Assembly: GCA_002794785.1 (NCBI GenBank) | Contig: NBBA01000012.1 | Coordinates: 496,001 to 560,000 of the forward strand | Source: Coniferiporia sulphurascens | Lineage: Eukaryota > Basidiomycota > Agaricomycetes > Hymenochaetales > Hymenochaetaceae | Direction: 5' to 3' | DNA length: 64,000 bases | In this document: positions 19,822 through 62,940 of the stretch, in pieces | Numbering within the stretch: the first letter of the stretch is position 1 | Layout: the number at the start of each line of letters is the position of its first letter | Notes under the pieces: model-generated | The model's input: only the letters and a program-made list of their open reading frames with translations | What the model was told of the DNA's origin: nothing | The model's database searches: none | Program-made: the position numbers and the translations under genes

Positions 19822-20065
19822 CACTTCAGGCTGGCAATGTACCAGATACTCTTAGTGTATATTCTCTCCTATTGAAGGTATAGTCTAATAGAGTGCTGAG
19901 TGCACAGCATTGTGTGTGTGCACAGTGTCTACACACACACACCCTGCCACACAATATTTCCCAAGTTTGGACTGGTGTGTGGTGCATGTGTGCACAGTGT
20001 GTCCACACTTTGAATAATACAATATCCAGTTGTCACAACTGTCAGGGGTCTTTTGTGTGCACACC
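19822..20065 (+). repeat. Outer element left terminal inverted repeat
   Basis: Starts CACTTCAGGCTGGCAATGTA. The first 48 or so bases match the right end (inverted) nearly perfectly; alignment continues with gaps to about 244 bp, ending in a conserved TTGTCACA..CTGTC..GGGGTC block and a TGTG-CACA word. Confidence 0.83.
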
Positions 20066-20304
20066 AAAGTCTGTTAGAACCTTTCTTCAGGTGAATGCAA
20101 TCATAGTTACAGGAACATGTCACTGATGCAGACTTTCTCAGACCACAAGGATGGATATACTTAGTTAGTAACTTAGTAACTTCACTAATACAACTTTTCA
20201 ATCCACCCCAGAATTTTATGCTGGCCTGGTTGAAGTCCTTACACACTGTCAGATTAAATAGGCTTCACCTGCACAATTGATGCAGATGATCTGCTGACAG
20301 TTTG

Positions 20305-20768
20305 TGTTGTTAGGTTTGTGGTGATCATGTCGGGCTTTGATGTCAGAACTGATGGTATGGCACGGGGCTTTAGTGTGTAGTCGATGGGGATGTCGATGGG
20401 CTTTGATCGGTGATGTGGACGCAGTGGGCTTTGTGAGTCGGGTACGAGCGAATGGCAGTGGCACAGTGAGGTGGTAGGATAAGGGCTTGTATGAAAAGGC
20501 ACAGGGGCTTGTGCTACTGAAGTTACACGCTTATATGTATCTATGTTTGTACTGTACGACTTGTTATTGTTTACCAACTATGAAGGTCATGAAACAAGAA
20601 ACCTTGTAATACAATACTGACATAAGCAAAGCACGTCATGATGTGCAGTAAGCGTATCATGCGTCTATGCGCAATGTGAATAAGGAGAGTAAGGCAGAGA
20701 TGGGAGTGCGCTGACTGATGATGATAAGAAATGAGTCAGTGCAAATATAGAAGTAAAAAATTGTAACA
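20305..20768 (+). repeat. Solo LTR j (TGTTA family, heavily eroded by small deletions)
   Basis: About 464 bp against 560 in the other copies. The order of family landmarks is kept, but several-base pieces are missing in many places (for example TATGTATCTATGTTTGTACTG where others have TATGCTACTCTATGTGTTTGC). It ends TTGTAACA. Flanks GTTTG and GTTGA are only a poor candidate duplication. Confidence 0.75.
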
Positions 20769-21519
20769 GTTGATTACAGAAAATAGGAGACCTTATCCAT
20801 CATTGTCATGCTTTCTGTACAAAATGTTTTTACAGGCCAAAGGAGGCCTGTGTAGATTCTAAAAAGCCAAGTTTCATCAGATGGACAGGCAACCATTTTA
20901 ACCCTATTGATAGTCCATCTATAACAGCCAGGGGCAGGTAAATTCTCCAACCCCTTAGTGTTACAAAAAATTTATACAGACAAGGAGAATCATGTCCCTT
21001 ATTTGACAAAAAGTGGCTGAGTGAGCTTGAGACTGCTGACTTGTATACCAGTGGTCAGAGCAATGCCGATGAACTCCTATTCTCATCACTGATGATAGAT
21101 CTGACTTGGTGGAAAGTGCATCTAGGAGATATCTAGATGAATGGGACAGTAACATGATCCATTCAAGCTGGCAATGACTTTGTCTGCAAAGCTGAGAAAT
21201 ACTTTTAAATTGGACACAAACTCAGAGATATGAAGGTCGACAGCAATTTAAGAACTGCGAGTGTCTGCACCATTGCAGAACACGTATGCACGGCACTTGT
21301 CTCAGCCCTGGCACTCGATCTATGCACAATGGTTACACACTACATGGGAAGTGTGCAAATGGATATCCTGATCCCTTCAATTGTGTTGGTACCATCTCAC
21401 CGAGGGAGTAAGAGCATAACCTTTGGACTCAGAGAATACTCAAAATGAAGTTAGATGGCATACACTCAATGAAAATGGAGTACACCATCTAGACAGCCCA
21501 AAGTGTATGCATAATGTGC
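20769..21519. other. Outer element subterminal spacer, no gene seen
   Basis: AT-moderate DNA between the eroded LTR and the palindrome array. The short open frames have no recognisable family and no counterpart in the inner element at 46204-47796. Confidence 0.5.
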
Positions 21520-21960: not shown

Positions 21961-22162
21961 GTACTTAGGAGTGGACAAACCTAAGTGTGCACACAAATTT
22001 TTCACAGGGATATTATTCTGCGCACACAGAGGACTTGATTCACTTTGTATCAATTTGTTTTTATACCACTGCAGTAGAAACTTGATTTAATTACAAGGTA
22101 AATGCAATGAGATTCTGAATACCAAGTCAGCATCTATTGGCATTCAATTATAAAACCATTAC

Positions 22163-22702
22163 TGTTAAGCTCAATGGTTATGTGGTGATCAACGTCAGGG
22201 CTTCCTGATCGTCGAGAATGGTAGTATGGCAACAGGGCTTCCTAGATGTCGTGAGTCAAAGGTGATCGTCGATGGGGCTTCCTGATCAGCGATGTGGGCG
22301 CAGTAGGCTTCTTAGACAAGTCGGGTTACGATGAAGTGACTTAGTGGCACAGCAGCGCACAGTAGACTGGTGGTAGCAGATAATGGGCTTGTATGAACAA
22401 AGAGCACAAGCTTAGGGCTTGTGCTACTGAAGTTACATGCTTATATGCTACTCTATGTGTTTACTACTGTAGCTGCTTGTATGCAGTTGTTTACATGGCA
22501 TGGAAGGTCATGGAAACACAAGGAATGCGATCAGTAAGCAAAGCACGTCATGATGGTGCGATAAGGTGTCATCATGGTGTCTTATGGTGTAAGGTGAACT
22601 AAGGATGAGTAAGGGAGAGAAATGGGGGAGTTGCACTGACTGATGATGATGAAGAGGAAGTGAGTCAGTGCAATAAGGGGAAAGTAAAGGAAAATTGTAA
22701 CA
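22163..22702 (+). repeat. Solo LTR c (TGTTA family)
   Basis: 540 bp with a perfect 5 bp duplication ATTAC (22158-22162 and 22703-22707). Inserted just downstream of the outer G3 gene. Its 3' hairpin reads TGCACTGACT/AGTCAGTGCA, changed on both arms relative to the common form yet still perfectly paired. Confidence 0.88.
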
Positions 22703-22779
22703 ATTACATCAACAAGGATTAAAAATGGGATCAGGCTTGAGTAATTAATGAAAGGAATAGTCCATAGTAGTTGATTTAA

Positions 22780-25700
22780 TTAGTCCTCATAGGCAGACCT
22801 CTGCCCCTTCGCACAAACATCTAGTCCATCATTAAGACATGCATCATGCTTACCATGGCATTGGCCCAACCTGCAACCCACAGACACATCAGGATGAGAA
22901 ATTTGTATTGGACAGGAGGATGAACCCTGTAGGAACTCAGGCTGCAGGTTGTGATGAGCTGGGTGCTGCCGACCTAGGGATGTGTCACCAAGTTTACGCT
23001 TCTTGCAGGGGTGATCTTGAATTGAGGGGACACTCACGGTAGATGGCTGGTCAAACTCATGGGACGGAGGGCCATCGTTTTCATAGTAATGCATACGATT
23101 GTATGCATCATTTGGCCTACTGGCTTCTTTGTCAATTGCTGGTAAATTTTGGGGACCAGACCAACCAGAGACTCGGTCATGCTGAGAGGCGAGTGGGGTG
23201 AAGTAATCCACCCAAAGTGCAGGGGGGGGGCATGCTTGAGTCTGAGTCCAATCAAGCCAATTATGGCCTTCAGTGATGGTGGGGCTAGGGTATCGATAAC
23301 CCTGCATTTGACTGGTGTCCTGACGCCATTGAACATTCTGCTGTGGGATGGAAAAGTCGTTGTGCATGGCTCTCGAAGTCCAATCCTCGGCCCCAAAGGC
23401 ATTGTCCTGTGCATCTAGGTTTGAATAAGCTGACATGAAGTCCTCATGTGGTGCAATAGATTGATGACATGGTGCAATATGGTGAGGCACGCTGGACTGT
23501 TGATGTGCGGCTAGGGGGGGGGGCGGTGCGGCACTGTTGTCTCATGCTTTCGCAAAGTGCCAAGTTGATGGTGCAAGGCACCAGAGTGCTGACGCGAGGG
23601 AGTGGGGTATTGGAGTGGGGCTGCAGATTGTTGATGCAGGGCATCAGAGTGTTGGTGTAGTGCTGGGGGTTGTTGATGTGGGGCCACAGGGTATTGATGA
23701 GGAGCAGTAGGGCATTGGTGTGGTTCGAGAGGACCTTGACTTGGAAGGGACGAGTCTTGGTGACCATGTGGCCGAGGAGCCGCAAACAGGCGGTTCCAGG
23801 GTTCTCATGTCTCTTTGTTGTCACTTGTGTGGGCGGAAAAGTCGGTTTTGTGAGATGGACTACCTCGAACATCTTGAATGTCATTGCTATCATCAGTATA
23901 TGCATCTTGATTGAGTGCATGTCTAAATCTTGCTGACTCCTGCAGAGTGATCAAAAAATTTCTGGACCAAGTTACAATGAGTGGGTGACCCTTGATCGAG
24001 GCCAAATCGTTAGTATCGAAAACTGTGTATACACATTAGTTGCTATAAAGAGAGTCTTCAAGCAGGGCTATAGTTACGAACCATCTGTGCAATCTACAAT
24101 GCAAGGCACACATTTATCATTTGGATGCGGCTCTGAATCAACCCCGTTAATACAATGCTCATCAGCCAATAACAAAGCTTCAGTGTAAGGCGTGAAAATT
24201 GACTTCGTAAAACGCCTCGACCACTCGACATTTGCCTCGAAGGGGTAACCATCCGGCCAGATCAGATGCAGTTTCTTTTCCCACAAGAAGTCCAAAAAGT
24301 TACTCCATGGAATCCTAAACTCCTTGTAACCCTTCTTAACCAAGGGATCATCTCTACAAAGTAGTATTTCCACTGAAAACATGGCGTCAGGATGGGAAGA
24401 CGCAATGAGATTAATAGCAGGCATACCTAGCTGATATTTAATATAGCAGTGATGGAGGTGACAAGCATACTCCCTTGGGGATTTACCCAGTACATTGGCA
24501 GCCAAGGCCGGTCTTTGAAATCCCCTGTTCTTGTGGTGATTCGTCAAACCAGACTTCTTTTCTTCATGCTGCATTTCAGCATGTGATGTGATGAAGGCAT
24601 AATTTAATAAGTATTACAAAGCCATCAGAATGAGAAGAAATAGCTGTGAACCGAAGAAATGAAGAAAATGTCTGCAATATATCCCGAATTATTATGCCAT
24701 GTGCATCCATGGCATGCACAATTGCAGCAGAGGAGCTAAAGGTCCTGTTTACCAAGTGCACTTGGTCATGGACAACATTGCAGTTGATGATGCCCATGAC
24801 ATCGAGTCCGAGGCACTCCCCTTCAGCACACTAAGTGTATATCATGACCAGGTGATTGCAGAACATAATATATTGAAACAACATACTAGGGCATCGAGCT
24901 TTTCTTGATAGGCTCTGTACACATCAGGTAGATTTCGCACTTGCTCCAGGGCCAAATGGTTGGTGGTCATCAAGTAATCAAGCTGCACCTTGAATGTCTG
25001 ACGGCGAGCCTCAGCATCATCTTGCTTATCTCTTGGTATAGTGTCAAGAACACAATCATATTCACACCTTCTAGCCAGCTGAAACTCCTCTAACGTTTCT
25101 TATGAAAACATGAGTTGGAACTCAACAGGGACTAGGACGTCTGACACTCACTTATTTCAAGGAATGATTTACGGCCTATTGCCGCAAACCACGCACCAAA
25201 GGTGTTCCAGGAATTCAATTCCAAATGGGGAACCTTACACTTGTTCAAATTATCGAGACCAAGAAATACATGCAGTCGTTGAGGGTTGACACCGCTGTTA
25301 GTAGCCACCACATTTAGCCCATCATATAGATCATCCAGCGCCGCTTTCGCTTCCTTTTTGATAGCTTTTGACAACAGGCCACACTGCCTTTGCCGAGTGG
25401 GCTTGTCGGAGGGGGAAAGGACATCTTCCCCATCTGGCTTGTCTAAAGTAAAATCTCAATATACACATATAAGAAGGCAACAACTAAATGTAATCATTTA
25501 CCTGAAGAAGGCGACAACTGCACAGTCGCAATTGATGCTTTACTCTGCTGTAAAGGCAAATGAATTCCATCCTCTGGTTCAGCATCCTGCATCCAATACT
25601 CCTCATCCTCTTCATCTTCATCTGAAGTTGAAGGATCGATCAACTGGCCTCGAGCATGCTTGGCTTCCCAATTTGTTAGAAATTTTTGATGGCCCTCTTC

Positions 25701-27205
25701 AAAATCATCGTTGTCAGTGCTGTCTATGGCAGAGTCATTATCTTCGATATTGTCGGGTCCACTAGCAAAGCCGTGAAACTCTTCATACTCGATGTGATCG
25801 CTATTCATTGAATAACCATTGCTGGGATCATCATTGCGATAATTGCTGTTGCTGACATTGTCATTGTTGCTGGCATTGTCATTAATGTCGTTGTCATCGC
25901 CACCGTTAATGGTGTTGTCATCATCATCATCGTCATTGCCACCAAAACCACCGTTAACCTCACCACCTATCTCCTCCCCAGTACTAAGATGCTCATTAGT
26001 ATTGGGGTTAGCAGTGCCCCTGCCTCCTTCCCTATTGTTGTTGTCTTGACTGGTACTGCTTCCATGGACTTCGGCATGAACACTTTCGCTACCCTCAGAG
26101 TCTCCAGTACATGTAGAATCACGCAAAGCAGCGAAGTGCTCCACTAGGGCATGTTGCCTTGATAACTCAAGCAATGCCGACCTTTCGGCATGAATGTTCT
26201 TCGCTTTTGCAACTGGCTGCATGGCACTCCTAGGCCCTGGAGCCAAGAGGCAAATACCTTCATTTTCTGCCAACAAAGGGGGGATGCTTTTCTCTCTCAA
26301 CGACAAGGGGGGGGGTGTCTCCGTTTTTCGACAATGTTTGAGATAAGGAAGTATGAGTCTTAGTGCTTGTAGCGACTCGCATCAACTGATTTTTTAAATG
26401 TGGAGCACAGGTACCCGATTCTCATGTTGGGAGGATTAGAGACAATCCTTCAGATACGGCTAGTGGCGCATAGAGGGTAGGCGCCACTCCTCGCAAAACA
26501 AATGGAACATTTCCGACTAGGATGTTCGAAGAATGCAGCATGCGTATGATACCAGTCGTCAGGTCATCTTCAGAGTTCTCGGTTCTTCATCTGTAGGGTC
26601 CATACACCAGCCTCGGCCTCGGTAACCGTCTCTGAATCGACTATATGATACTAAGCAAGGCGGCAAGCAAACCAAATGAAATAAGATATTCACCTTGGAG
26701 TTAGATTGAGTGGCCGGCCCTACAACTGTAGAGATGGTTGTTTCCCAACCACCATTCTGTATGTTAAAGTAAGTATTTATCATTACGAGTTAATGAAAAA
26801 AAGCTGACAAGTTGATCCGGCCCTATGTCATTACACCTCCTTGGTATAATGTCACCAGGTTCAGCAGTCTGTGAATCACTTGAATAAACATTCTGAATAT
26901 GATGGAGGAAAAGGGACATGAACCAGCAATTGCATCTGGACCATATCTTCTGATCCTTGTCCTCCCCCTTCGTCGTTTGAGCATGCCCCATCCTTATTGT
27001 TATTGCAATCAAATCCATGAAGATTGTCCGGAGCTGCGGTGGGAACATCCACACTCCCAGTGGCTTCACACAAATCCTGACAGCGGCATGAGTGTATTTG
27101 ACAAAAGGACATATGCATACAAACCTTTGGGCTTGCTTGAGTACTCTGTCCCCTGGTATGGAGTTCTTGTCCATCAGAGACCGAAGATGGGTCCGCATCG
27201 TTCAC
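22780..27205 (-). pseudogene. G3 gene of the outer element (unknown family, acidic, multi-exon)
   Basis: Not a family I recognise. Reading leftward: an N-terminal exon (27205 to about 27130) ending ASPK at a GT donor; a short exon near 26640 (GYRGRGWCMDPTDEE) that resembles RPVYRRNVDPQDD in the inner copy; a 270-codon exon (26306-25494) that is Asp/Asn/Glu-rich (GGNDDDDDDN) and ends with DPSTSDEDEEDEEYWMQDAEPED; then conserved blocks LNSWNTFGAWFAA (about 25200), the segment EYDCVLDTIPRDKQDD...YQEKLDALV (25080-24900), GIINCNVVHDQ...IIIRDI (24800-24650), and WPDGYPFEANVEWSRRFTK (about 24250). The C-terminus is Gln/His/Pro-rich and carries the basic stretch CKKRKLG, possibly a nuclear signal. 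Exon joins are approximate. It points away from Comp/KDZ across a shared spacer. Nuclear DNA-binding or regulatory role is only inferred. Confidence 0.6.
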
Positions 27206-28682
27206 AGGTGGTACGTGTGTATCAACTAACCTGTCAGTACCATCTAAATTCTATAATTTGTGGGCGGTCAGGATGGTCCGTAACTTATTTGAGAATTAAC
27301 TCACTACACAGTTCCCTGCACTAGGCGGCACCGAGTCAGGTTGAATTGTTAGATTCTACTCGAGCACTGTCAACCACATCAACCGAATCAGGGTATATAT
27401 AATGTACCTTTCATCATCCTTTTCCTTTTTCCTTTCCCCTTGGTCAGCAGCGGGGACATTGGTATCTGAGGAGTATCTGAAGGCAAACAAGCTCATCAGA
27501 CCATTATAAAAACCTGAAGTCACTGTAGAATATACTGGTATTTTTGTGTTGGTAAATTGATGAAAAATCGTGATCACCAGATCGACGGATTGGCAAGATC
27601 GACATGGAGAGACCTGTAAACATAATAGATACCCAGGGAATGTGTCAGTGATGTAAAGACACAAATCTAATTAGCTGGAAGGTATTCAACATAGCATGTG
27701 CAACAATAGGTGCAAACACAGGATATGATAACTGTCAAATCATATTTGATCATACTACAAGAGAAATACCAGTAATGGACAAACAAGAAATTGTAATTGA
27801 ACACAAAGCCACAATGTTCTCTTACCAATTAAACAAGTGGGTAATCAATGCTTACATCAGAACTAGGATATGTAATCAGCCACATAACAATTTATGTTAT
27901 CAATGAATGGTGATAGCACAAACTGATTATGCCAAAAACGCCAACCAAATAGTTCACAATATCAATAAGCAATTACAAGAACAAATGTTTGCATACATGA
28001 ACAACTTTGTAGCCAAAGGAAATACAACAGTAGATTGAAGAGAAGAAGGAACACCTCAGATGATGAACATGGACAGAGAACTCCTAATGCACTGGATGAA
28101 TGAAGAACCATCATATTGAGTCATGACAGGTTACAATAGAATTGTAAACCTTATGAGTGCAGGGCCTGAAGAGCTCTTTATGCTAATAGATGATAGGACA
28201 CCAGAGCAAACCCCTTTCACCGATATCATTAATCTATAAGCAGAATGACTCAATCTTAGTCCACAGTAATAAGTAACAAGCCACAACAAGATAAAATTAA
28301 GAAGGCTAGCATAAGCGCTGAGCCACACAAGTATATCTAAGTGTTCAGCTAAGAATAGCCAATGGAAGCATGGTGATCAATTGAAGATGCAATTGATGGG
28401 AGCCAAGTATAGTGCATCGCACAGCAGAACCGATTAGGAAATAAGGAGAAGCATCATAGGTATAGTAGTATCTGAGAATGGTTACCTTAGGTATTATACT
28501 GTATGACTCAATGGAAACTCAGTGAAGGTTCTAGCATAAGATAAAGATAGCACAGTATGCTGTAGAACATACTGGAATATGTAACTGACTCATAGGAAGC
28601 TAAGAATAGTAAATAGCATGTACAGGATTGTACCAGAACATTCCTATGACTTATAAATCAAGAGTAGTATGTTGTAGTATCT
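27206..28682. other. Divergent intergenic spacer of the outer element, left part
   Basis: AT-rich, no convincing gene. Before the inner element inserted it was continuous with 48065-50292, forming the spacer between G3 (minus) and Comp (plus), where promoters for both directions should lie. I cannot place the promoters. Confidence 0.5.
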
Positions 28683-28689
28683 ACCAGAA
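28683..28689 (+). repeat. Inner KDZ element target duplication, left
   Basis: ACCAGAA, repeated exactly at 48058-48064. Confidence 0.85.
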
Positions 28690-28950
28690 CACTTCAGGCA
28701 ACCCTTTTATAGACCCCTATTAGGCTTATCTACTTCTGTTAGTGTTTAGCCTAGTGAGGCCTTCTTTTTCTGAGCACCACACAGGTGTGTGTGCGTACAT
28801 AAGGGGGTGTCTGTGCACACTGTGTGGGTTCTTTCTGACCTTTCCCAGATGGTTGTGTGTGCACATCAGCCGCTTGTGTGGACCCACTTGGATGTCCATT
28901 TTTCAAGCTGTCACAGGCTGTCAGGGGGACTTTTGTGTGTACACATCCTG
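28690..28950 (+). repeat. Inner element left terminal inverted repeat
   Basis: 261 bp starting CACTTCAGGCAACCC and ending GTACACATCCTG. It matches 47797-48057 in inverted orientation with roughly ten differences. It contains TGTG..CACA words and the block AAGCTGTCACAGGCTGTCAG shared in outline with the outer termini. Confidence 0.88.
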
Positions 28951-29058
28951 TAGTTCTCCCATTTTTTGTCCACTAAATGCTCCCACTAGTGAAGTGGCAA
29001 CTTACATCCTATGAGAGTGTGTGCTCAGGCTGCAAGCCTGCCAGACTAGTGTACTGCT

Positions 29059-29676
29059 TTAGGGCATCCCATGGGTGCACCCATTGCCTTACCTGCGCCC
29101 ATGCCAACACTCACCATGGGTAGACCTGTATCTGTGGGTGACATGTATGTCATCCCATGGGTACTGTAGGTTAATGTTAAGTGTAGGTAGGGTCTTTGAT
29201 AAGCACATTACCCACATGTAAGGTGGTGTGTCAGACCACAGGTGCACCCATCCCCTAATTTGAGTATTGTTCTCATATTTTAGTTACAAAAAAACTAGCA
29301 AATGGATGTAGTAATAAAAAGAATGAGACACTGTAATTGGCATAAACCAACCCATGTGCCCAACTCACTATTCAAAAATAATATCTCAAATCTTTACAAC
29401 CAATGCATTTACAGGGCCAAAGGTCATGCCAACATATACTCACTCACATACTTGCCATACAGAACTACTTGCATTTCCTCCATGTATCCCTATCTGGATT
29501 CTGCACTTTCCTTGTTATCCTAATATATCTGACAGTGACAAATGCACCTTTCTCCTTTGTCTTCTTTCTGTCATAAACTGAAACCACATGCCAACTTAGG
29601 GCATCCCATGGGTACACCTGTGGCATTACCTGTGCCCATGCCAACCCTTACCATGGGTAGTATCTGTGGGTGACAT
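29059..29676. repeat. 85 bp direct repeats around a decayed LTR-like segment
   Basis: 29059-29143 and 29597-29676 are direct repeats starting TTAGGGCATCCCATGGGT and ending TGGGTGACAT, rich in CCATGG. Between them, 29450-29596 resembles the 3' half of the gypsy LTR (ATCTGACAG..ACAAA..CACCTTTCTCCTTT...CTGTCATAAACTGAA). This may be a very old LTR relic; the direct repeats are too long for its target duplication. Confidence 0.4.
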
Positions 29677-30262
29677 ATTGTGTGGGCACACATCAAGAAC
29701 ACCATGTGTGCACAGTGAATTTATTGTGTGGGCACACATTGAATGCACTGTGTGTACACAGTGATTTTATTGTGTGTACACAGTCCTATTATTCCACACA
29801 CTGTGCCCACACAGTGACTTATTCTGTGTGGACACAGTCCTATTGCTCACACACTGTGTCCACACATTGTGTGTGCTGTGAACACACAGTGGATGTATGT
29901 GTACACACAAACCAAGTGATGTGTATACACACTGTTGTGCCAATGGTGTGGCGTGTGTACACAGTTGTATTGTTCCCACACATTGTGCTTGCTGTGAACA
30001 CACAAGTAAATCACAACAATGGTGTGTGTACACAACCCTATTACTCACACACAGTGTGTGCACACACGGTGCCACACAGGAGCATGGTGTGTATACACAG
30101 TAAGTACTGTACACATGCAGTGTGTGCTCACACTGTGACCACATGCTGTAAGCACACAGTCGCATACACAAAACTAGAATGCAGTGCATACACATGGGAA
30201 AGATATACAATATGTGTGTACACACAGCTAAGAGATTTTCCACTGTGCACACACACAGCAGG
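29676..30262. repeat. Subterminal palindrome array, inner element, transposase side
   Basis: Repeated words of the form TGTGTNNACACA/CACTGTGT spaced by 15-40 bases (TGTGTGGGCACACA, TGTGTGTACACAGT, TGTGTGGACACAGT and others) immediately beyond the 3' end of the KDZ gene. An equivalent array lies at 61110-61490 in the outer copy. Confidence 0.7.
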
Positions 30263-30420
30263 TAGGGCATCAATCTGGACAAAATCCATGGTCTAGAGGA
30301 GAATTCAGCACATGTTGGGTGAGTTTTGATGCAGACCTTCACAGAGTGCACTGAGATGATCGAACTACTAAAGGGATGACTTGGAGCAAGAAAACAGGGG
30401 AGGAATGGTATATTATAAAA

Positions 30421-38620: not shown

Positions 38621-38720
38621 GAAATGACCATATTGCAATAGAACAAATTTGCAACTAGTTTCACATCTAGTGCACGTACTGCAACTGTACCATCTACAAA
38701 CCAAATCAGACTCTAGGTCG

Positions 38721-47796: not shown

Positions 47797-48057
47797 CAGG
47801 ATGTGTACACACAAAAGTCCCCCTGACAGCCTGTGACAGCTTGAAAAATGGACATCCAAGTGGGTCCACACAAGTGGCTGATGTGCACACACAACCATCT
47901 GGGAAAGGTCAGAAAGACCCCACACAGTGTGTGCATACAGCCCCTTATGTACACACACACACCTGTGTGGTGCTCAGAAAAAGAAGGCCTCACTAGGCTA
48001 AACACTAACAGAAGCAGATAAGCCTAATAGGGGTCTATAATTGGGTTGCCTGAAGTG
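47797..48057 (-). repeat. Inner element right terminal inverted repeat
   Basis: 261 bp, inverted match to 28690-28950, ending GGTTGCCTGAAGTG. It is followed directly by the target duplication ACCAGAA at 48058-48064. Confidence 0.88.
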
Positions 48058-48064
48058 ACCAGAA
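48058..48064 (+). repeat. Inner KDZ element target duplication, right
   Basis: ACCAGAA, identical to 28683-28689. Confidence 0.85.
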
Positions 48065-50292: not shown

Positions 50293-52498
50293 ACAATAAT
50301 GCTACATCGGTTCATACACTGGATGCGAGAGTGGCAGCAGATATGCGCTATAATGATCTGGTTGTCACAACCCCCAATAGTAGCTATCTTCCTGAATTCC
50401 CATTTGTCAGCACTGAGGGGATTGTAAAGTGTGAGGATGGCTTTTGGGGGGGGCACAAGTATTCCAGGTGGCCACAGCTGCACTCCACTTCAAATATGCA
50501 CCATGCATGCATATCCTTCACACTCGACCAGGATACAACCAAGGATGGTAGGACAACATCTTTTGGTATAATCTCGAGCAGTCTGACTTTATTGAATCAA
50601 CGGGTGTAAATACTCTCAGTGAGCCCCTAGGACAATTCCGCATAGATCTATTGGATCGCATCGAGCAAGTACTCGAATTATGTGCTATCAAGGCTCGAAA
50701 GGAATACGGATCCCTAGAGGAGACCAGACTATGCCCGACAATAGATTGTATTATTAATATAGGGCATGTGGCTGTAGATCGACTTCGACAGGTTCAACAG
50801 AGCTGGAGGACATCTCTTTTCTCCTTTCATGATGTGCAACGAGCTGGGATCGAACTGGATGCTGTCATACACTATGCATGCAGGGTCTACCCTCGTATGA
50901 AATCTGCGCGATTCTTTAACGATGATGTCCTCAAGGTTTGAGGGGCATTCACAACTGATCCGGCAGTTGTTCAAGATTTCTTCCATATGGGAATACCTGT
51001 CTGGTATATTCGACCATCCATGTCTCTCACAACGCAGATGAGGGTTTATCAAGTAGGGAGGTTTTCTCGATGGGACCGAACAATGAAGAGTGCTCCTTTC
51101 CAGCTACAGGGGGCAACATCAACGAAATGGAGCATATTGCTACAGTATGGCTTGCGGACATCCTCCCCACATGTAATGGATGATCGGACAATGACTGAGC
51201 TCATAAGAATCATGCATGGGTTCACGTTATCCCCCATCACAGGGCCTCAGGTTAATCCATTTATTGCTTCGTCATCAACTACCTCGACTACCTCATCTGT
51301 CACCGTTTCCTCCTCGTCTTCGAGTAATACTCCACCCAGAACACTCCTCCGAAATGCGTTGAAGCCATCAACTTCTAATCAGATCAACCCTCCTCCAGTT
51401 GCTGATTCGAGTAGCTCAAAGAACAAGTGTTGCTGCACCAACAAGACAAAAAAGGGGAATGAGGTAAATCCAAACTACCCCTATCTATATCATGTCCCCT
51501 TGGGCATCAATGGCTCACCAGATCTCCTGGACTTCCATCCTTCCATCCACGCATCCTTGGAAAGGGCATCACCAATAAAAGCAGTTCCTAATGCTGCCAC
51601 CTTATACCCACTCCCACCTCCATACCTCCTAGTCCATAATGATGGTGAGAAAAATGCAAGGCAATACTTAAACTATGTGCATGTCCACAGCGCCTTGCAA
51701 CATATGCTTTTGAATGGAGGTACCTTTGATAAATCAATTTGGTGCAAGGTGCAAGTCTGGAGGACAATAGTGTACAGTAATTATGACAAAGGTTCCCCCC
51801 TTGTCCCCAACACCATCTCACCTTTCATTGAGAATATCTACCATACTCTCCCTCAGTCGTCATTGTCATCAGCATCGTCAGCATCACTGCCTGTCCGGGC
51901 GAGAAAAGGTAACATTAGTGATGCACAGGGAGACTTACTGCCCTCGAAAAAACAAAAGCTAGTGGAGAGTGCGACAATGAAGGCCACATTTGGTGCTGAG
52001 TGGTCGTTTTCGTCCTTCTCACCAGATATACAAGTTGAATGGCATGGTCAGCTTGTCTCGATTGACCACATCAAGATGGGCAAGGGTTTTCGAAAGGAAG
52101 TCCAGTGGGAGCTGTCGGAGATGCTCTTTCGCATGGAGCTTTGGGCACTGGATCAGAAAATTTTCCCACATGACTTCATGACTGTTGAGGCAGCCCAAAA
52201 ACATGTTGCTCACCTGAGCAGAATATACCTTGGTGCAGCAGATGGTAAATCAACATTTGTCCCAGATATTTCTTGTCCCATTGTTGAGTACTGGGGACCT
52301 AGTCCTAACGTTGACTCGCTTCACTTGATGAGAAGTGTATTTAAGGAGTGGCTGAACTGTCCCCAGAGGTTGAAGTTGTCAGGAGATGTGGATGAATGCG
52401 ACTTTCCCATTATATTATATTTTTACATCAGCACCTTCATTAATGCCTTTAACAGGATGCCCACATTACATTGCAATACCCCAGAAACATTATTTTAA
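50293..52498 (+). pseudogene. Comp gene of the outer element (unknown KDZ-linked family)
   Basis: The readable part starts after an acceptor (TTACAG) at 50293: VHTLDARVAADMRYNDLVV, NSSYLPEFPFV, GFWGGHKYSRWPQLHS, then after a frame change near 50560 DRIEQVLELCAIKARKEYG and ARFFNDDVLKV, a TGA at 50939, and a long open stretch of about 518 codons (50942-52498) containing GIPVWYIRPSMS, a Ser/Thr-rich linker (51260-51345), LYPLPPPYLLVHNDGEKNARQYLNYVH and the C-terminal block MKATFGAEWSFSSF ... FINAFNRMPTLHCNT. It aligns block by block with the inner copy. No known domain recognised. It ends about 0.3 kb before the first readable KDZ sequence in the same direction. Confidence 0.66.
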
Positions 52499-54060
52499 TG
52501 TAGAACCACTTAATGCAATTTTTTATCATCTGGCGATTTGGCAGGCCTCCCTTATGCGACATATCTAACTCCCTAAGTTGTTTTACTAACCTTACCCATA
52601 TGTAGATCGGGGTAGTGAAGACCGAAAAACGTATGTGGAGAAATTATTTCATGGAAATGGCGGAGTTTCTTCTGATTGATGTTTGTCCAGGAGCATGGCC
52701 TGAGCTAACGTGCCGCGAAAAGGTGCTATCTTTGTTTCCAGACCGATATTTACACTGACCCATGCCCTGAGGATGCACGTGTATCATCGCAGGTGCAATA
52801 CTGGTATGCAGAGGAGGCGATAAGGGCATGTGACCCATTGCTAGTCCAAATTTTACATGAGCTAGTTTCAGTATCCGAGACTCTGAGTCTCAAGGTCCAT
52901 TCTGCATTAGCAAAAGGTGGGGGGTTATCCATTTTTTTTCTTCACAACTCGATGCTTATTGTTGACATACAAAGGCCACAAAGTATGCAGATATCTGCAC
53001 AAAGGAGACACAAGGTATACAATTTTGCCACAAATGCAACAACAAGAAGTTCGTCCACTGCACCATTGGCTGCCGGAGAACACTGTTCCAATTCTCCTAA
53101 GAAAGTTTCCAATCGCCCCCTTCACTTTATTTCTACTGGTGAAAAATTATCACAACCACACAGAATACGAGTACTACCTGCCAGTGTGGAACCAGTGGCC
53201 CCTGTCACTCCAGTACATCGGTGTATCGACACCGGCTTCAGCCATGTCACACCCTTCAATCCAGATTTGTCTCCAGGCACCTTTTACAGTCCCTCTTTCA
53301 TGAGCCCACAGAGGCAACCCATAGATGCAACATTGACAAGGACCAAGCAGAGGAGGGTGAGACAGTGGGAGCACTGGAAAGAGGACATAATACCTTTGCT
53401 CGTGGAGCCTTACTTGGATGTACTTCGCCATTCTGAGTCCCTCAGATTCCCAGTGTCTTCCCCTCCAAATGGAGAGTGCTTATGTGGAGGCGCAAAGACG
53501 CAGTTAAGCATCCTATGTGTGTACTTTTCCTGTGTGTCTCTTTTTTTCTCTTGCTCTCACTTGCACAAAGCCCCATACTTAGGTATGCTATCCATCAGAC
53601 ACTGCTGTGGAGCTTGTTACTGTCTGCTGTTGCAGACCTGCTCCTCTTCAGCTCCTCAACCGAGGTCTTTTCGCTTGTGTGCCCTGCCTTGCTACCCTCA
53701 CCATTGATCTGAATTTGCTCGAGTTCATACTAGAGCTTTTCCTTCATATTTCGCCAAACAAGACAGCTATTTGTCTGACACTGGAAACATTTCTTTGTGC
53801 ATGTGGTTTCGCATTTGATGGCCAGGTGCGATACTTCTTTCATTTCTTTCATACTTGTTGTTCTTTCAGGACCTAAAGTCATACCAGGACTCTCTAAGGT
53901 GACATTTCTCCAGTGTGTTGCAGTGGTTTGGAGTGCTACAAGACATAATGCACTCTTATATTGACAGAGCTGTCAACAAAACTGCAAATAATTGTTTCAG
54001 TGGTGGTGAAAGCGCTACCGATGAAGGCGTTACAGGCATCCACTCCCCATCGACCAATTG

Positions 54061-54620
54061 TGTTACAATTTTCCTTACTTTCCCCTTATTGTGCTGACTC
54101 ACATCCTCTTCGTCATCACCAGTCAGTGCAACTCCCCCATTTCTCTCCCTTACTCATCCTTATCCACCTTACACCATAAGACGCCATGATGACGCCATAT
54201 TGCATCATCATGACATGCTTTGCTTACTGAGACCCCTACATGTATTACCAAGACCTTCCTTGGGTTTCCATGACCTTCCATAGCCATGTAAATGACCTTA
54301 CACAAGATGCTACAGTAGTAAACACATTGAGTAGCATATAAGCATGTAACATAGATTGCACAAGCCCTAAGCTTGTGCTCTTTGTTCATACAAGCCCATT
54401 ATATGCGCCTCAGTGCCCTCTGTGTGCTCTACCTCATCATCTGGCACTTCGTCGTAACCCGACTCCTCTAGGAAGACACCACGTACCTTCTCGACGATCA
54501 GGAAGCCCCACTGTCGATCTACTTCGTTACCGGCATCCAGGAAGCCCCGTTGCTGTCACTATTAGCCTCGACGATCAGGAAGCCCTGACATCGATCACCG
54601 AGTAACCATTGAGCTTAACA
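54061..54620 (-). repeat. Solo LTR i (TGTTA family)
   Basis: 560 bp, flanks AATTG (54056-54060) and GATTG (54621-54625): a 5 bp duplication with one A/G difference. Inserted in an outer KDZ exon. Same subfamily as copy b. Confidence 0.87.
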
Positions 54621-56168
54621 GATTGTGAATCTTCTGTACCAGGTTCACCATGCATGCACTGATCTAAACAACTTGGAAATGAAAGGGTACTGGCAGATAA
54701 AAGTAGGTGACTTTGTGCCTGTATCCATTCAATTAATAAGCTCTAAGGAATTTTGTACAGTCGAAGGCAACAGCGCTCTATTTTTGCAGGGCATTCCAGC
54801 GGCTGGTGGGACCGGTCTAAGTTGTGCACTGGTAAATGAAGGTACATGAAACTAACTCTTTATCTTTCACTATGCCCTTCGAATGACTGACACTGCATGT
54901 TACAAAAGGTATTACAAGCTGTCCTTCATTACAAGGGGATCGGGAAAGAAATGGCATCGATGGTGCAGTGATTTACACCATGAATATATGTATTTTTCTA
55001 ATGTAGTACTTTGTGGCTCCTAAATTAGAATCACTGGATTGTTATGCGTCGCAGTATCTTCGGGATCATTGCCCATGCTGCTTTGGGGGCCGGTTTTATG
55101 CAACAACGACAGAGTTAGTAACTCCGCCTGCTTCTATGAGTGTCTTGTATATTTACTAATTTTATTATAGAGCACATATCCTTGTTTGTCTAGACATGTG
55201 TTTTCAGCAAAAGTGAGGATAAGGGAATTATGACCCACCGCATCAGCACCCGGAAACTGTCTTCGTACCACTACAGGAATTGTTGGCTATGGAGAAGCTT
55301 GTAGACAACACACGGAATCATGTACACAAAACCGGGAACACTCAGAAGCAATGACAAGCCCATACAGGCAAAGACAATGCTGATGAAGACTTTATTCAAG
55401 AAGGCATGCGAGTGTCCGAGGGAGTCTTGAATGGCCACGAAGAGGCTTTCAAGGCAGTGGATGACAGACAACAGAAGGCCAGCATGCGATTTTTTTCAGA
55501 TACTGGGTTAATGGCATTGCTCTGTCATCATGACCAAGTTCTTTGGCTTGCTAACATGACTTCAGCTGGGGAAAAGCAGCACTATGTGCTTTCGCTCATA
55601 ACTAAACTTTTCGAAAATCTTCCCTCATATGTTACCATGGGCATCTTGTATGATATTGGTTGTCAGCTGCATTGAAGTATAGTGAAGTGGGGGTTTCTTA
55701 AGGATTTTTCTGAGTGTATGGCCTTTGCTATTTCAGTGTTTCATGCCTTCAGGCATCAGTGGGCATGCCAGATCATCTATCACCCACACAAGTGTGATGG
55801 GTTTGGACTTACTGATGGTGAGGGGTGCGAGCGATTTTTTTTTTTATTTTTAAATTTATTATTCCTGCTGAGCTACACAATACACCTGTGGCCCTGAAGG
55901 GGCTGCCTGTAAACTACCTAACTACTGAGGTGCCCATCATCACTCATTGAGCGAAACTGGGCGGGGTGCATGCCTCCCAGGGGAGGCCTAGTGAGCTTAC
56001 GTGCCCTATTAGGGATAAATAGAGGAAGGGAGAGGGAGGCATACATATTGTGACTACAAAAAGCTGGACCAAGCCAAATAGTGAGATCAGGAAAGAGGAG
56101 TCCCTTAGAAGAGGAAAGGAGCAGCTGCAAGTGCCATAGAAGAAACCGATGGGGAATCCGAAGGGCAG

Positions 56169-58187
56169 TCAAGAGTCAGAGGGAAATGGTGGGAGCATAC
56201 CTGATAGCTCCAAAAGGGCAGGGTCCACATCCTGAGTCCTGGATCCGAGCAACCTGCGGACGTAGCCCCTGAGGGTGTCCAAGTCCAGGTCGTTGTTGGT
56301 CAGGAGTCTGTCCAAGTCCATAGCCGCAAAGGCAAGGTGAATACTCCAGCTGTGCAGATGGTCATCCGGTTGAGGTGGCCTGTGAGACGTAGCCAGCGTC
56401 TTAAGACCAGGAGGTGGTTTTCGTCCACCCATTCAGAATGGTGGACCGGGAGGGGGTCGCTTTTTGGCCAGACTCGTCGTATCCAGGGCTGGAATGTTTC
56501 GCATCCGCCCAGGACGTGGGAGGTTGACTGTGCTGGCCAGGGTGGGTGGTTGTGCCACCTGCAATGGGAGATCAGGCCATGTCTGTGTCGGTAGGCCGAG
56601 TCGAAGCTCAGCCAGTAGCCCCTGTAGGGACCGGCACGACCGAGGACCTGAGCCACCACAGTGAGCTCTGAGTGGGGTGGTTGACTGAGATGGTGATTAT
56701 CTTTCTTGGTCATCATGTGGGGGGCCCAGTTACTGCGAGATACTTGTTGGCAGTGGAGGCGAGGGGGCGGGCCAGTTGGAGGGACCAGTGCTCGTTGAGT
56801 GTGCGAGTCACCACTTCCTTCAGAGCGGAGATAGAGGGAGCTAGGGTCAATGGGGGAAGCTCTGTTGCAAGCTTCGCCTCGGAGTCCACCCATTCATTCC
56901 CAGGGATAGCCTCGTGTCCCAGGCACCACTGGAAGTGGACAGTCAGATTCGGGAAGGAGTCATGTAGAGTCTCGACCTCTGCCTTCCATAGGGGAAGGAG
57001 CTGGGCCCCCATTGCTGAGGGCCAGGTGCGAAATAGGCCGAGGGCTGTCAGTGAGTCTGAGAGAAAGTAGATCTCCTGGACGTCTGGCAGCAGATGTTGG
57101 AGTCGGCGAGATGCCCAGCCAGGAGCAGTCGCCAGTGAGAAGATTTCGGTGTCTGTTGCTGTGGCACAGGTGGGGGAGGCGAGTCGGAGGGCGGTGATGT
57201 AAAGATCGCCCTTCATACTGCAGATGGCGGAGCCTGAGGCGTTGCCGATGTGAGAACCATCTGTAAACACCTGCAGGGAGGAGTCGGTGCAGAGAGCCTG
57301 GGCTTGGGCGACGTAATGGTTGCGCACTTCCCCTGAGACTGGCTGCTTCGGGACTGAGAAGACGATTCAACCTTGACCGAAGGCAAGGGGGTCCGTCCAG
57401 GGGGGGTGCATGTACGCTGGGATCCGTTGGACTTGTGGACGCGGACCTGCAACGAAAGTGAAAAAGGGGTGTTAGCATTGGGATTGAACTTTTTCTGTCC
57501 TACATGGTGGGGGGTACACCATAGGCGCAGGGCATGAGTGGTCTTTAAATATTCGAAATAAGTGAAGAAAGGGGGAGTGGAACAAAGAAAATTTGTAGAT
57601 TGGGGAGACACGCCCTTGTAGATGCCTAAGATCCAATGGCAAGCAGTGTTTTGTACCGCCTGCAGTTGGTTAACGAGGGTTTTTTGTCGACGTCCATGAT
57701 ACCACACTGGTGCGCCCCATGCTAGGACAGTGCACACACAGGTGGTGTAGAGTCGTCGGAGGTGGATGGCAGAGAGGCCCCTCTCGGTGTTGCTGAGAAT
57801 GTGTAGGGCTGCCAGTGTCAAGAGGCCTTTGGAGCGCATTCGCTCCACATGGGGTTTGAAGGTGAGGCCCGCGTCCCACCAGATTCCCAGCCATCGCAGG
57901 GGATTGGTGGGGCGAACCAGGGTGTCGGCATCTATTTGTATCCCAGCAGTGTCCCAGCGGTGATAGCCGGTTCGTTGCCTGGGCGGGTGGAAGTGGAGGG
58001 CCTCTGTCTTCGCCAGTTCGATGTCCACGATTAAGGGCACCCTTGCGGGACCCATCACTACGCATACACCTTCCTCGTGACATCGCTGCCCCCGGACAAA
58101 GGCCTTACATGTGACACGCTGTCCTCTACAGTGTGCTGGGTTGGGTAGGGCGTGCCACACCAGGAGAACACCCCGAGTGGAGGTCAC
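56169..58187 (-). pseudogene. LINE H ORF2 3' part fused to a novel N-terminal stretch
   Basis: A 324-codon frame (58187-57213) starts in the novel leader (MTSTRGVLLVW; CRGQRVTCKAFVRGQRCHEEGVC, a Cys-rich stretch) and passes in frame into RT thumb sequence (ALHFHPPRQRTGYHRWDTAG, WLGIWWDAGLTFKPHVERM). RNase H follows in other frames with QVFTDGSHIG, SDSLTALGLF and IPGNEWVDSEAKLATELPP (57270-56860), then the family C-terminus at 56169. Without the RT palm it cannot be active. Confidence 0.7.
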
Positions 58188-59293
58188 GGCGCCGTAGGCA
58201 CTACTCCACCCATTGGAATGCCCCCCCTACCCTACACATTCCCTCCCTTGCCCGCTTTCCACTGTAGAGCGCTGCTGGATCATGGGAATCAACTTAAGCC
58301 CGAAATGGGAATTACCCCCATCCGAACCCACAGAGGATTTAGTCCTCTCAAGCTGAATGAAGGGAACTGCCCCCCACCACTACGGCCCGCTCAGAGGTCA
58401 GGTTACCCCAACATGAGTTTCCCATTCCCATGCACATGCTTCGGAGCCCAGGGTAAACCCTGGGGAATACTCAGGATGGAGTCCCACTTCCGGATCCACT
58501 GCGTACACAAGTCTCTGTGTTGCCAGAGGCTTGGACCCCGGCCTATCTCTTTCGAGGCTGCCAGGGAGTCCGCTTGACTAACCACCCCCAGTAGAGCACC
58601 AACCACCTCCCATCGTTCCCAGTGAAGGGTTCGTGAGTAGGGGCCTGCCATCTCCCCCGAGGGCCCATGGTGGCCTGTTGCTCTCACATCGGCTGGTTAT
58701 CACTGACAACGCCACATGTTATGAGACCCCTATGTCCTTATGGCATCTAATGGCATCATCAGACACCCTCTCAGGATTTGGGGATGGCAGTTCTTTGATT
58801 AGTCTATGCCGAGGACTACGTGGCCCCAGATCCGAGTTTCCCCAAACCCAAGGTTTCCCGACCGAAGCCGACCGCTGGGTGGGCAGGGGGTTTCCACCCT
58901 CCCATAGGGACGTTAACATCGTGTCCCACCCCGACTGGCGGGTGTGTGCACCCTTGCACCACTGAGAGGCGGACCAGCGAGCACACTGCCTCGAGAAGGT
59001 CAGCATAGATGTGAAGAAGGGTCATCCTCACCGAGTCCCCCCCCCCAATGCAACATTTTCGACGGGTTGCGTACCCTCTGGCAAGCGGTTAGGCCCCTTT
59101 CGCACCATCCAGCGACACCGCTACAGCGCCTCAGCAACCAGTGAGTAGTGCTCCTTTACAAAAGGTGTGCAGTCAGATGCCTTCTCTCATGATGTCCCAG
59201 TAGTATACCAGAGCAGAGCATGGGTTGCTGCGACTGACCAGAGACAACCCCAGAGCAAAGGTGAGATGGTGGTGGTAAGAGGACAAGAAGGAT
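58031..59293 (-). other. Novel 1.26 kb 5' region of LINE H
   Basis: GC-rich, flanked on the right by the LINE 5' terminus and on the left by RT sequence. It has no similarity that I can see to the 5' region of copy A except the first 30 or so bases. It holds short frames on both strands, none recognisable. It may be an alternative LINE 5' region or a transduced/captured host sequence. Confidence 0.5.
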
Positions 59294-61109
59294 GGGTGCG
59301 AGCGATTCTGGAGCTCAATAAAGCATCTTATACCCTCAATGCACATTACTGGAGTAAGTTGCTTTGTCCCACCTTCACTTCAATCAGCTCAGTTTCCTTT
59401 CTGTTAAGTATCATCAATGACTATACACTCTTGATGCACAGGTGCAACATCTCCAAGATGATAACCTGGTGAAGCTCAGCCAGTGGATTGCCAGGCATCT
59501 CAGAAGTGCATATTCACATCTGAATGACGTGTTAACTTCGTTACATGAGTGTGGGATCCTGCAGGAAGAGCTTGCTGCTGAGTGGGATGAACAGCTCAGG
59601 ACTCAGACGAGGCCTTTACCAAGTACGTGATTCCTTGCTCACTTCTACCAAAGGTAATGATATGCTAACGTAATCAATGGGAAACTGTAGGACAGAGTAA
59701 GAGGGCGGCGCACAATGCTATTGAAGAAATAGCCGCCCTGCAAACACGCTACGGTGAGCTCGGTAGGCACATTCAAGACCTAGACAAGCAGACTGTCAAT
59801 ATTGATGCAGACTTCAATGATGTGGATGCAAGTCTCACTTGCACAATTTCCGCAAGATTGAAACCTCAGGCTGAAATAGATAGAAGGGTCAAGGCGTTGG
59901 GTGTTGGTGATCGTGATTGGCTGGATGTATTAGAAACGAGCCCGTTCGTCAATCTGAGAGTAAATGCTCATGCACTCAAACAGTGGCTTCGATTTAAACT
60001 TCAGTCATGGAAGTTTGAACTACAGAATGTAGAGCGGCCTTATCGCTCTCATGCTGCACAGTCCCGAACTAACGGCAGGACCAGTTACATTGTTTCTCTG
60101 CTATGCTACTGGCTCATTATCAGCTGCAGAAAAGAAAAAAGCAGATCTCATTGACACTCAGATGAAATGACATGACCCTAGCATAGTCCAGCTTGCTACA
60201 AAATACAACAAGTTATGCACAGATATGAGAAAACTTATACAGCAGTGTAAGGCACCCTTAGGTGCAGTATGCCCTGACCCCATTGAAATCAAAGGGCTCT
60301 TCAACATGGATGTCGACAATGCCATTTGGAGTGATGTAGGTCTTTATGATGAGACAGATGGTCCTATCCCTTGCTGGCTGGGTAATGAAGACATGCACAA
60401 AGGGATACATGCACTACTCGATTCTCAACAATGTCAAGAAGAAATCACTTGTGTGGAGCAGGAGAGGGCTGCAATGCAGGAGTGGTTCTTGAACAATTGG
60501 GGAAAATTAGCTGCTGCTCTCAATTGTAAGTGCTCATAACTCTGCATGTGGCTCATGTACTGATGTTTTTACAGCGTCAAATGCTGGTCTTACTTATGCG
60601 ATACAATGCCGGCAACAATTTTACCTTTTGATCTTTTCAGAATGGCAAAAGCAACTTAAATTTTTTCAAGTCCATAATACTTCTATTGTTCCCACATGGG
60701 GTCCATTGCCCGAAGATATAGTAAAGTATGAACTTACTCTGAAGGCAATGATGGGATGAAATGACATCATATCCATCCCATTGTCCCCACTTTCTTACAA
60801 AACACAAATACTCCCTGCTGATGACTTTGAGAACTCATCTGAGTTAAGTGTCAATAGGCTATCCATCGGGTCGCATGATGGCAATGATATGGATGGCAAA
60901 GAGTTGGAATTGATGGAAGCTATGGAAGATATACACACTCTGGAGTTTGGTACAACGGCTGAATTGGACAGAGATTTGACTTTAGAATATAGCCTGGGTA
61001 GTTCATCTCTGACAAAAAGAATGTGCATGTAGTAACTGATTCAAAATTTGTTCTTTCTTCACATTGTAACCCTGGCCTGACCTAGTGCCAGTCTCTGTGC
61101 TCTTTTTCT

Positions 61110-61490
61110 GGACATGTGGACACACAATCTAGTTTCACAACTTGAAGTGTGTGCACCATTATTTCGGTGCATACACATTTGTAATATGTGTGCACTCTCC
61201 AACTGCATCAGAACAAGTGCAGCCATGCTCTCCATCTCTGCGGCCACTCTCCCTCGTAGTGTGGCCGCATGTGGGCACACTGCAAATGCGTGTGGCCACA
61301 TCAGATTATTTCAGACACTGCGGCCACACTTGCATGTGGACATGTTCCGGATGTGTGGGCACACTCTAATTTGAGTGTGGCTGTTTCCAAGCAAGTGTGG
61401 CCATGACATCGGCAACTACAGCCACACTTGCATGTGGCCACACTCTGAACACCATGGTGTGCCCTTAGCGACATGTGTGGCTCACTTGTA
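61110..61490. repeat. Subterminal palindrome array, outer element, transposase side
   Basis: Begins just downstream of the KDZ stop. Words include GTGTGGCCACA, TGTGGGCACAC, GCGGCCACAC and GTGTGTGCAC. Short plus-strand frames rich in CGHT are translations of the repeat. Confidence 0.7.
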
Positions 61491-62694
61491 CTACACATAG
61501 TATGTATAGAATAATTATTTCACACCTTTTCCCATGGTAGTACTACTTACTAAGACAATAAAATTAGTAACACACTTGGAAGCAACACTGGTAAATCAGA
61601 ACAAGTGTAAACTCCAGTATAGAAACTTCCTGGCACATTGACTTCTTAGAAATAGTACTAGTACCTTGTCTTTGCAAGATAGTCTCTGATAAGATAGTCT
61701 CTGATGGTCTATTTCAATGACTGATATCTTATTCTTTGGAAATCAAGGAGCAGTTCAAAAGGCTCAGTACTGCTACTACTGCCAGTGCTCTCATACTACA
61801 TTGATGCTAGTATACACCTATTTGAAGGGTGAAATTTGGCAGGTGACATGAAAAAGCAAATGCCATTTGACCATGTTGAGCAATGAAGAACTCATGGCTG
61901 CACTGTGTAGCAAAGCTCATTTGCAGACTGTATGCACCAGAGTTCATCCCAGCAACATTCCCTGAAGCCCCCCTTCATTCCCTATTGTTCCCTGCAGTTC
62001 CCAGAGCCCTGGAACGTCCAGAGTATGTAATGTAGCATGCTGGAGTTATCCTGGAAACATGCCCTTGCTTGCAGAGCCATGAGGCCTGTTGTATTTAGTG
62101 GTAGCAGGTTGTTTTGATAATTGAATTTTGTTCCCCCCAGTTTTTATCTATTGTGTGCATTGGAGTGTTTTGTTCAAGCTCCCTGTTGTTCCCCTCTTTG
62201 TTCCCTGTTGTCCCTGGTCCTCTGGACCACCCCCCTGATGTTCCCAGAACTCCGGCACACCCCTCCTTGACACTCCAAGAGACCCCTACTCCCCCCAGGA
62301 TGGCTGTGCAGTGCACCCTGCCCACAAACCTTTCAGTAATTAGACCATGACTGGCCTCAAGCACTACCAGCCTGAGGTACCTCACAAGAATCTTAATGGA
62401 GTTGCTTATGCCCCAAACATGGCATATTTGGAGCAAGGCCATTAGCTAGCTTAGTGGAAGTGAGCAGTGCCATTACCATGATGGTGATATGTGCTTTCAC
62501 TCCTACTCAGACTGCTTCTCCTTTAACTCTCACCCCTTTGTTCACTAACAGATTTGGTCAGATTTATCTTATTTTTAATGGCATAATTTTTGCTCTGACT
62601 CTATCTAGTGAGTTTACACAGAAGTGAGCCCTATACACAACAAACATTCTGCCAGAACTACCATATGACTGAAAAAGAATAATACATGAAATTT
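61491..62694. other. Subterminal spacer, outer element, no gene seen
   Basis: Contains CCCTGTTGTTCCC-like repeats (61960-62250). The 115-codon minus-strand frame at 62442-62095 has no family support. Confidence 0.5.
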
Positions 62695-62940
62695 GTGTGT
62701 ACAAAAAATGGACCCCAGACAGTCTGTGACAACCAAATATTTTCATATACAAAGAGTGGGCATGCTGTATGCACCCACACCACACAGCTATCCCAATTTG
62801 GAAAAAAGTGCAGAGCCCAGTGTGTGTGCACAGTTTCTGTGCACACATGCAATGTGGTGTGTACAGCACTCTCTTAGAATATATTTACAATAGAAGAGAA
62901 TACACACTAAGAGTATCTGGTACATTGGCAGCCTGAAGTG
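62695..62940 (-). repeat. Outer element right terminal inverted repeat
   Basis: 246 bp, ending GGCAGCCTGAAGTG; inverted, gapped match to 19822-20065, strongest over the terminal 48 bases. Confidence 0.83.

Follow-up and report, generated by a model that had tools for sequence, protein, structure and literature searches.

A 64-kb stretch of the Coniferiporia sulphurascens genome (assembly GCA_002794785.1, contig NBBA01000012.1, positions 496,001-560,000 of the forward strand; hereafter the window) contains two nested elements, each of which carries a KDZ transposase gene together with two further genes, termed Comp and G3. The outer element occupies window positions 19822-62940 on the plus strand and lies between two plus-strand copies of the target duplication CAGAGAA (19815-19821 and 62941-62947). 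Its terminal inverted repeats (TIRs), located at 19822-20067 on the plus strand and 62692-62940 on the minus strand, are 76% identical over 251 columns. Once the inner element and one duplication are subtracted, the size of the outer element is 23,744 bp. The inner element (28690-48057, minus strand) is inverted relative to the outer one, has TIRs of 261 bp that share 96% identity (28690-28950, plus; 47797-48057, minus), and is flanked by plus-strand copies of ACCAGAA at 28683-28689 and 48058-48064. Both left termini (19822 and 28690) read CACTTCAGG, and both right termini end in CCTGAAGTG at 48057 and 62940. The chance of a 7-bp flank match for a random pair of window positions is ~1.3e-4. 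These borders, termini and duplications had been proposed in a first-pass annotation of the window, and they proved to be exact.

The same annotation had described an identical gene layout for the two elements, with the inner copy inverted in the spacer of the outer one. Blocks of Comp and G3 are indeed found in both, in the orientations described; read in the direction of the KDZ gene, reversed G3 comes first, then Comp and then KDZ. The inner KDZ transposase gene (30844-34076, minus strand) was recognized by tblastn and by a match to PF18758 (E value of 2.5e-54). Its KDZ domain is located in the open reading frame (ORF) 32186-32974, and a conserved N-terminal block lies at 33909-34076. The inner Comp gene (35450-38056, minus) contains three in-frame TGA codons and, at 36603-37163, an insertion of ~560 bp that resembles a solo long terminal repeat (LTR); the conserved part of the inner G3 gene (43283-44591, plus) has the divergent orientation. 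In the outer element, G3 (23808-26381, minus) comprises conserved blocks and an acidic N-terminal exon, and the reading frame of Comp (50367-52495, plus) is broken once and contains a single in-frame TGA. The outer KDZ transposase gene (53360-60669, plus) is interrupted between 55837 and 59672 by a 3.8-kb gap containing repeats that are also present elsewhere in the window. Its KDZ domain is matched with an E value of 3.2e-45 and has four in-frame stops.

A search of the genome (39.3 Mb, 31 contigs) revealed that there are five three-gene KDZ elements in all. In addition to the inner and outer elements, three more of 17-20 kb are present at C10:1683661-1703498 (duplication GTGGATGA, ends reading CACCTCAGG), C2:755374-774054 (duplication CACGAGG) and C29:27336-44596 (duplication TTTCAAAG). 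The latter three were found by pairing ends, a procedure by which eight pairs were listed, five kept and three dropped. Each of the five elements is bounded by TIRs of 244-294 bp, with identities of 90% (C10), 95% (C2) and 93% (C29) over 244-294 columns; the absence of TIRs reported for the Laccaria families of Kyakuja was not encountered. All five have 5'-CA..TG-3' ends, a feature that the end-pairing search itself required. Their five target duplications are all different; three measure 7 bp and the other two 8 bp. The expectation of the first-pass annotation that insertion is accompanied by a duplication is therefore borne out in every case, whereas a fixed length of 7 bp is not. The three end pairs that were dropped (C29:21850-24149, C29:29811-48116 and C12:703129-712184) show a 7-bp match and were taken as chance, their ends being without matching repeats.

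The gene content of the five elements is equally uniform. The PF18758 KDZ domain is above cut-off in all of them, the order G3-Comp-KDZ is the same and the spacing similar, and Comp is always in tandem with KDZ on one strand. A conserved block of cysteine-rich pattern likewise occurs in all five; when a CxC domain was sought, the N-terminal block of the outer copy gave no Pfam match up to an E value of 10. The genome search with Comp yielded 12 matches, of which nine fall within the five elements and three at two distant loci, and all five loci of close Comp homologues are inside TIR-bounded KDZ elements. The search with the inner G3 (E <= 0.001) placed 17 of 17 matches inside the same five elements. 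These counts support the earlier proposal that Comp and G3 belong to the transposon. The first-pass annotation had also considered that the two genes might occur mostly away from KDZ, which is not what is seen; yet two distant Comp homologues lie near another type of transposase, and weak G3-like sequences occur in KDZ elements that lack Comp and at two places with no KDZ match close by.

The elements are far from identical to one another. Their KDZ domains are 62-72% identical, and judged by sequence the five elements are divergent families. The gene DNA of the inner and outer elements, in its alignable part only, is 64-77% identical, and the two belong to separate families. The nesting described in the first-pass annotation is upheld; its view of the pair as two copies of one family is not. 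Genome-wide searches with two TIRs, those of the inner and C29 elements, returned no other full-length member of either family. A fragment at C16:234659-236292 has a right-end TIR that is 70% like that of the inner element, has no left end and no duplication, and is possibly a shortened relative.

Empty sites, which had been suggested as a further search, were sought by joining the flanks of each insertion with one duplication copy and aligning the product to fetched genome regions. Uninterrupted paralogous sites were found for three of the five insertions. The joined site of the inner element aligns gap-free across the junction with 11 further locations of a repeat family (90-96%), that of the outer element with three (74-76%), and that of the C29 element with two (81-82%). 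These alignments confirm duplication lengths of 7 bp (inner), 7 bp (outer) and 8 bp (C29). No empty site for the C10 or C2 insertion was found in the fetched regions.

These sites also order the events in the window. The inner element was received by a repeat of ~1.36 kb, the left part of which (27547-28689, no strand assigned) and right part (48065-48276) adjoin without interruption in other copies, and the whole of which sits in the spacer of the outer element. This repeat predates the inner insertion and must have been there first. The nesting order is the inner element within the ~1.36-kb repeat, this repeat within the outer element, and the outer element within another repeat. The outer and C29 elements are inserted at different points of one repeat family, which overlaps window positions 4918-5862. 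Further copies of the ~1.36-kb repeat were seen in fetched regions, all of which had been chosen around KDZ, Comp or SPT5-like genes.

Comparisons among the five copies of each gene reveal that KDZ and Comp are constrained at the protein level. In all 10 Comp pairs, differences are more frequent at third codon positions (0.54-0.62) than at second positions (0.18-0.25), and the same is true of all 10 pairs for KDZ. We consider it likely, with a probability of roughly 85%, that the three-gene unit is a coherent KDZ transposon with two extra genes, Comp and G3, which presumably serve as accessory genes. On this reading the elements are DNA transposons of the KDZ superfamily that move by cut-and-paste; they are bounded by long inverted repeats beginning CACTTCAGG (CACCTCAGG in one), and their insertion is accompanied by a duplication of 7 or 8 bp. 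In each unit Comp lies upstream of the KDZ transposase gene, in tandem with it, and G3 is found towards the opposite end on the other strand. The KDZ protein would cut and join at the terminal repeats, and Comp and G3 would act as accessory proteins.

Additional information on Comp comes from its relatives outside KDZ elements. The only two others found in the genome, at C7:1568242-1573329 and C2:782813-786316, are 23-31% identical to the five KDZ-linked copies. Each lies near a divergent Plavaka-like match, at C7:1563999-1564412 (E value of 5.1e-4; 3.4e-5 in hmmscan) and C2:797069-797278 (2.3e-4). At the C2 locus Comp and the transposase are both encoded on the minus strand, the transposase lying upstream, and at the C7 locus the plus strand carries the transposase together with both ends of Comp. 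The two loci have a further ORF in common, with 49% identity. For every one of the seven Comp loci, a KDZ or Plavaka match is found no more than 13 kb away, and no further copy of Comp or G3 was found in the C. sulphurascens genome by the Comp and G3 searches. When Comp was compared with 5.8 billion proteins, there were four matches among 7980 candidates scored. One named fungal protein is included, P0001 of Phellopilus nigrolimitatus, which is 36% identical over the full query; the C7 Comp is 23% identical to it (E value of 3e-25).

KDZ elements that lack Comp are also present in this genome. The KDZ search gave 24 matches, which were counted as 20 loci. Flanks were fetched for five Comp-lacking loci (C1, C6, C12, C17 and C18); for ten partial loci, whose flanks were left out, the genome-wide search with Comp gave no match. 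In an unrooted tree of ten KDZ genes, the five Comp-bearing genes split from the five Comp-lacking ones with a support of 1.00. At four of the five examined loci (C12, C17, C6 and C18; not C1), an SPT5-like gene is located 4-5 kb from KDZ. These SPT5-bearing elements resemble the three-gene elements in having a KDZ gene, in the CACTTCAGGC ends, seen at one end of C12 and at both ends of C17, and in a weak G3-like domain in three. They differ in that Comp is missing and the SPT5-like gene is present instead. The G3-like domain was detected among fetched ORFs for C12 (1.7e-5) and C17 (4.8e-4), and in the genome search for C6 (3.8e-4, with 2 stops). The ends of the C17 element (643718-661161) match each other, but the element has no flanking duplication. 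The SPT5-like protein of C12 matches SPT5 chains in the PDB (E value of 8.5e-11), and its Pfam KOW matches are below cut-offs. A relative of the C12 element at C7:398-416 kb is truncated and has no KDZ match.

The SPT5-like family was counted as 17 loci from 26 matches, seven of which hit the G3-like part of the query. Members beside KDZ or divergent Plavaka-like transposases are located at C12:709928, C17:652065, C6:761980, C18:223477, C7:948900, C3:1820451 and C1:428305. The distance to a KDZ or Plavaka match is at most 12 kb for nine of the 17 loci and at most 23 kb for 13, and three loci adjoin divergent Plavaka-like genes. Binomial values for the proximity of SPT5-like and Comp genes to transposases assume uniform placement and overstate significance, since transposons cluster. 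No SPT5-like locus is inside any of the five Comp elements; one lies 324 bp outside the C10 element.

Comp appears to be an accessory gene common to unrelated transposases, with a function that we infer. Because its homologues occur near a Plavaka-like transposase of another superfamily, and because four of the five examined KDZ elements that lack Comp have an SPT5-like gene instead, we tentatively favor a role for Comp in aiding expression of the element or countering its silencing over one in the cutting complex. Should Comp and the SPT5-like gene prove to be alternatives, both would point in the same direction, to expression or silencing. A more doubtful, if possible, extension is that Comp founds a family of accessory proteins that has moved between KDZ and Plavaka-like elements, that can be replaced by a captured SPT5-like elongation factor (one of the two per element), and that, like this factor, keeps the element transcribed in methylated chromatin. 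Such a strategy would parallel that of transposon-borne TET/JBP. G3 is more closely tied to KDZ elements and may bind DNA or the transposase, which is a guess.

A different function for Comp would be that of a subunit of the KDZ transposition machinery, needed for cutting and joining. A second transposition protein has a precedent in TnpA and TnpD of En/Spm, and the invariable tandem, same-strand arrangement of Comp and KDZ and the similar constraint on both are in keeping with it. However, five KDZ loci with examined flanks do without Comp, and the distant Comp homologues lie near an apparent transposase of a different superfamily, which makes a subunit role less likely. Less probable still is the proposal that the elements picked up Comp and G3 from the host and carry both as mere passengers that contribute nothing to transposition. 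Neither protein has a recognized transposition domain, as befits cargo, but the pair has kept its order and orientation across five families as divergent as these, Comp is constrained at the protein level, and the genome yielded no additional copy of either gene. Finally, a single insertion followed by segmental duplication, for which the lack of a second same-family element for the inner and C29 TIRs and of any demonstrated recent multiplication might speak, is refuted almost with certainty as the source of the common borders and cargo, because duplications and flanks differ: there are five different duplications, uninterrupted sites elsewhere for three insertions, KDZ domains that are 28-38% different, and no shared flanks found beyond the receiving repeats.

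Several observations weigh against the view that these elements are coherent transposons with Comp and G3 as accessory genes and Comp as an aid to expression. All copies are known from one genome. Both Plavaka (PF18759) matches near distant Comp genes fall below Pfam's cut-off. The match at C2 is 12 kb from Comp, with a copia-like ORF set (judged by eye) intervening, and at C7 the middle of Comp runs opposite to the ends of the gene and to the transposase and lies between two inverted ORFs. Four of the 17 SPT5-like loci have neither transposase within 23 kb, and G3-like matches at C1:244557 and C14:1009654 have no KDZ match nearby. A relationship between Comp and the SPT5-like protein was rejected (hhalign probability of 0.1); the two are not detectably related. 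Neither Comp nor G3 has a Pfam or NCBIfam match over cut-off. The AlphaFold model of Comp, from an eight-row alignment, is poor (mean predicted local distance difference test score, pLDDT, of 38.5), and that of the G3 core, from two rows, is weak and consists of helices only (mean pLDDT of 61.5). Lastly, constraint on G3 is weak, with values of 0.55-0.70 at codon position 3 and 0.35-0.55 at position 2.

G3 has an acidic, repetitive N-terminus and a helical conserved core. Searched against the 5.8 billion proteins, first as a sequence (residues 360-760) and also as an alignment, it returned nothing at E <= 0.001, and 153 pattern matches to G3 in viral contigs included none that was confirmed. 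Pfam searches with five G3 rows up to an E value of 10 gave DuOB (0.1) and Metal_resist (0.016), each with one row, and these were taken as chance. At the sequence level, neither Comp nor G3 has a Pfam match that would identify it as a divergent TET/JBP protein. PF12851 (Tet_JBP) was unmatched in a six-frame search of the genome; the profile matched no control genome, and a divergent PE type could escape it.

KDZ elements, their TIRs, duplications of 4-8 bp and a habit of carrying accessory genes are already known. Kyakuja-1_LB and Kyakuja-2_LB of Agaricomycetes (Kojima 2025, PMC12730594) share with the present elements a KDZ transposase, 5'-CA..TG-3' ends, an extra gene and, in three of the five elements, 7-bp duplications. 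They differ in that they are described as lacking TIRs and as carrying a TET/JBP dioxygenase gene, whereas the elements reported here have TIRs of 244-294 bp and duplications of 7 or 8 bp. KDZ1, KDZ2 and KDZ3 of Cryptococcus neoformans, whose insertions have been caught in the laboratory, likewise have a KDZ transposase, TIRs (241, 139 and 169 bp) and target duplications (8 and 4-8 bp) (PMC12810828). They are ~9-11 kb in size, with a putative transposase that has KDZ and CxC1 domains, and Comp and G3 go unmentioned in the part of that account compared. In Marasmius oreades, KDZ and Plavaka make up about half of DNA elements, and TIR motifs have been characterized (PMC8290104).

The first-pass annotation knew of no described unit with this three-gene set. 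The combination of KDZ, Comp and G3 was not found in the main-text portions searched of the KDZ and Kyakuja literature (including PMC8290104, PMC12062965 and PMC9674265), so that an earlier description is possible; KDZ elements with TIRs, duplications and accessory genes are, as noted, not new. Similarly, no SPT5 or KOW genes in transposons were found in the literature searched. Within these limits, the three-gene set and the occurrence of Comp with both KDZ and a Plavaka-like transposase are apparently new. Few complete KDZ units with borders, duplications and full gene sets appear in the literature as far as it was covered. Two unrecognized genes that have been kept with KDZ over deep divergence provide named targets for the extra-protein needs of large eukaryotic DNA transposons.

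Every one of the five Comp genes is broken, and all 16 of their in-frame stops are TGA. Ten of these align with Arg of the Phellopilus homologue, and one is outside its coverage. The distant copies have one TAG (C7) and two TGA (C2). CpG observed/expected ratios are 0.42-0.61 in the elements, compared with 1.04 and 1.02 for two short stretches that are presumably host DNA; the start of the window, which is rich in transposable elements, has a ratio of 0.45. The genome has two C5-methylase domain matches above cut-off (E values of 9.4e-9 and 2.5e-4). Because all Comp stops are TGA and CpG is depleted, the elements look like methylation-decayed fossils, which probably were silenced and then decayed by mutation at methylated CpG. 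CpG transitions are not clearly the main difference between paired TIRs, since few differences are at CpG (0/70 in the outer element, 2/10 inner, 0/31 C10, 6/27 C2 and 3/12 C29). Recent CpG decay is thus unsupported by TIR differences, and the decay argument rests on stop codons and dinucleotides.

The window also contains other repeats. A repeat of ~450-570 bp is present in ten copies (13851-14412, 18165-18725, 20320-20771, 22158-22705, 34166-34735, 36603-37163, 38054-38626, 40256-40815, 44767-45326 and 54061-54622), most with ends TGTTA..TAACA, which by appearance are solo LTRs. Three of the ten have exact 5-bp flanking duplications (CAGGG, ATGCC and CAACC). A reverse transcriptase match and an RNase H match below cut-off were observed at 4918-5862 and 10009-11028, and LTR-retrotransposon RNase H and integrase zinc-binding domains are located at 16764-18284.

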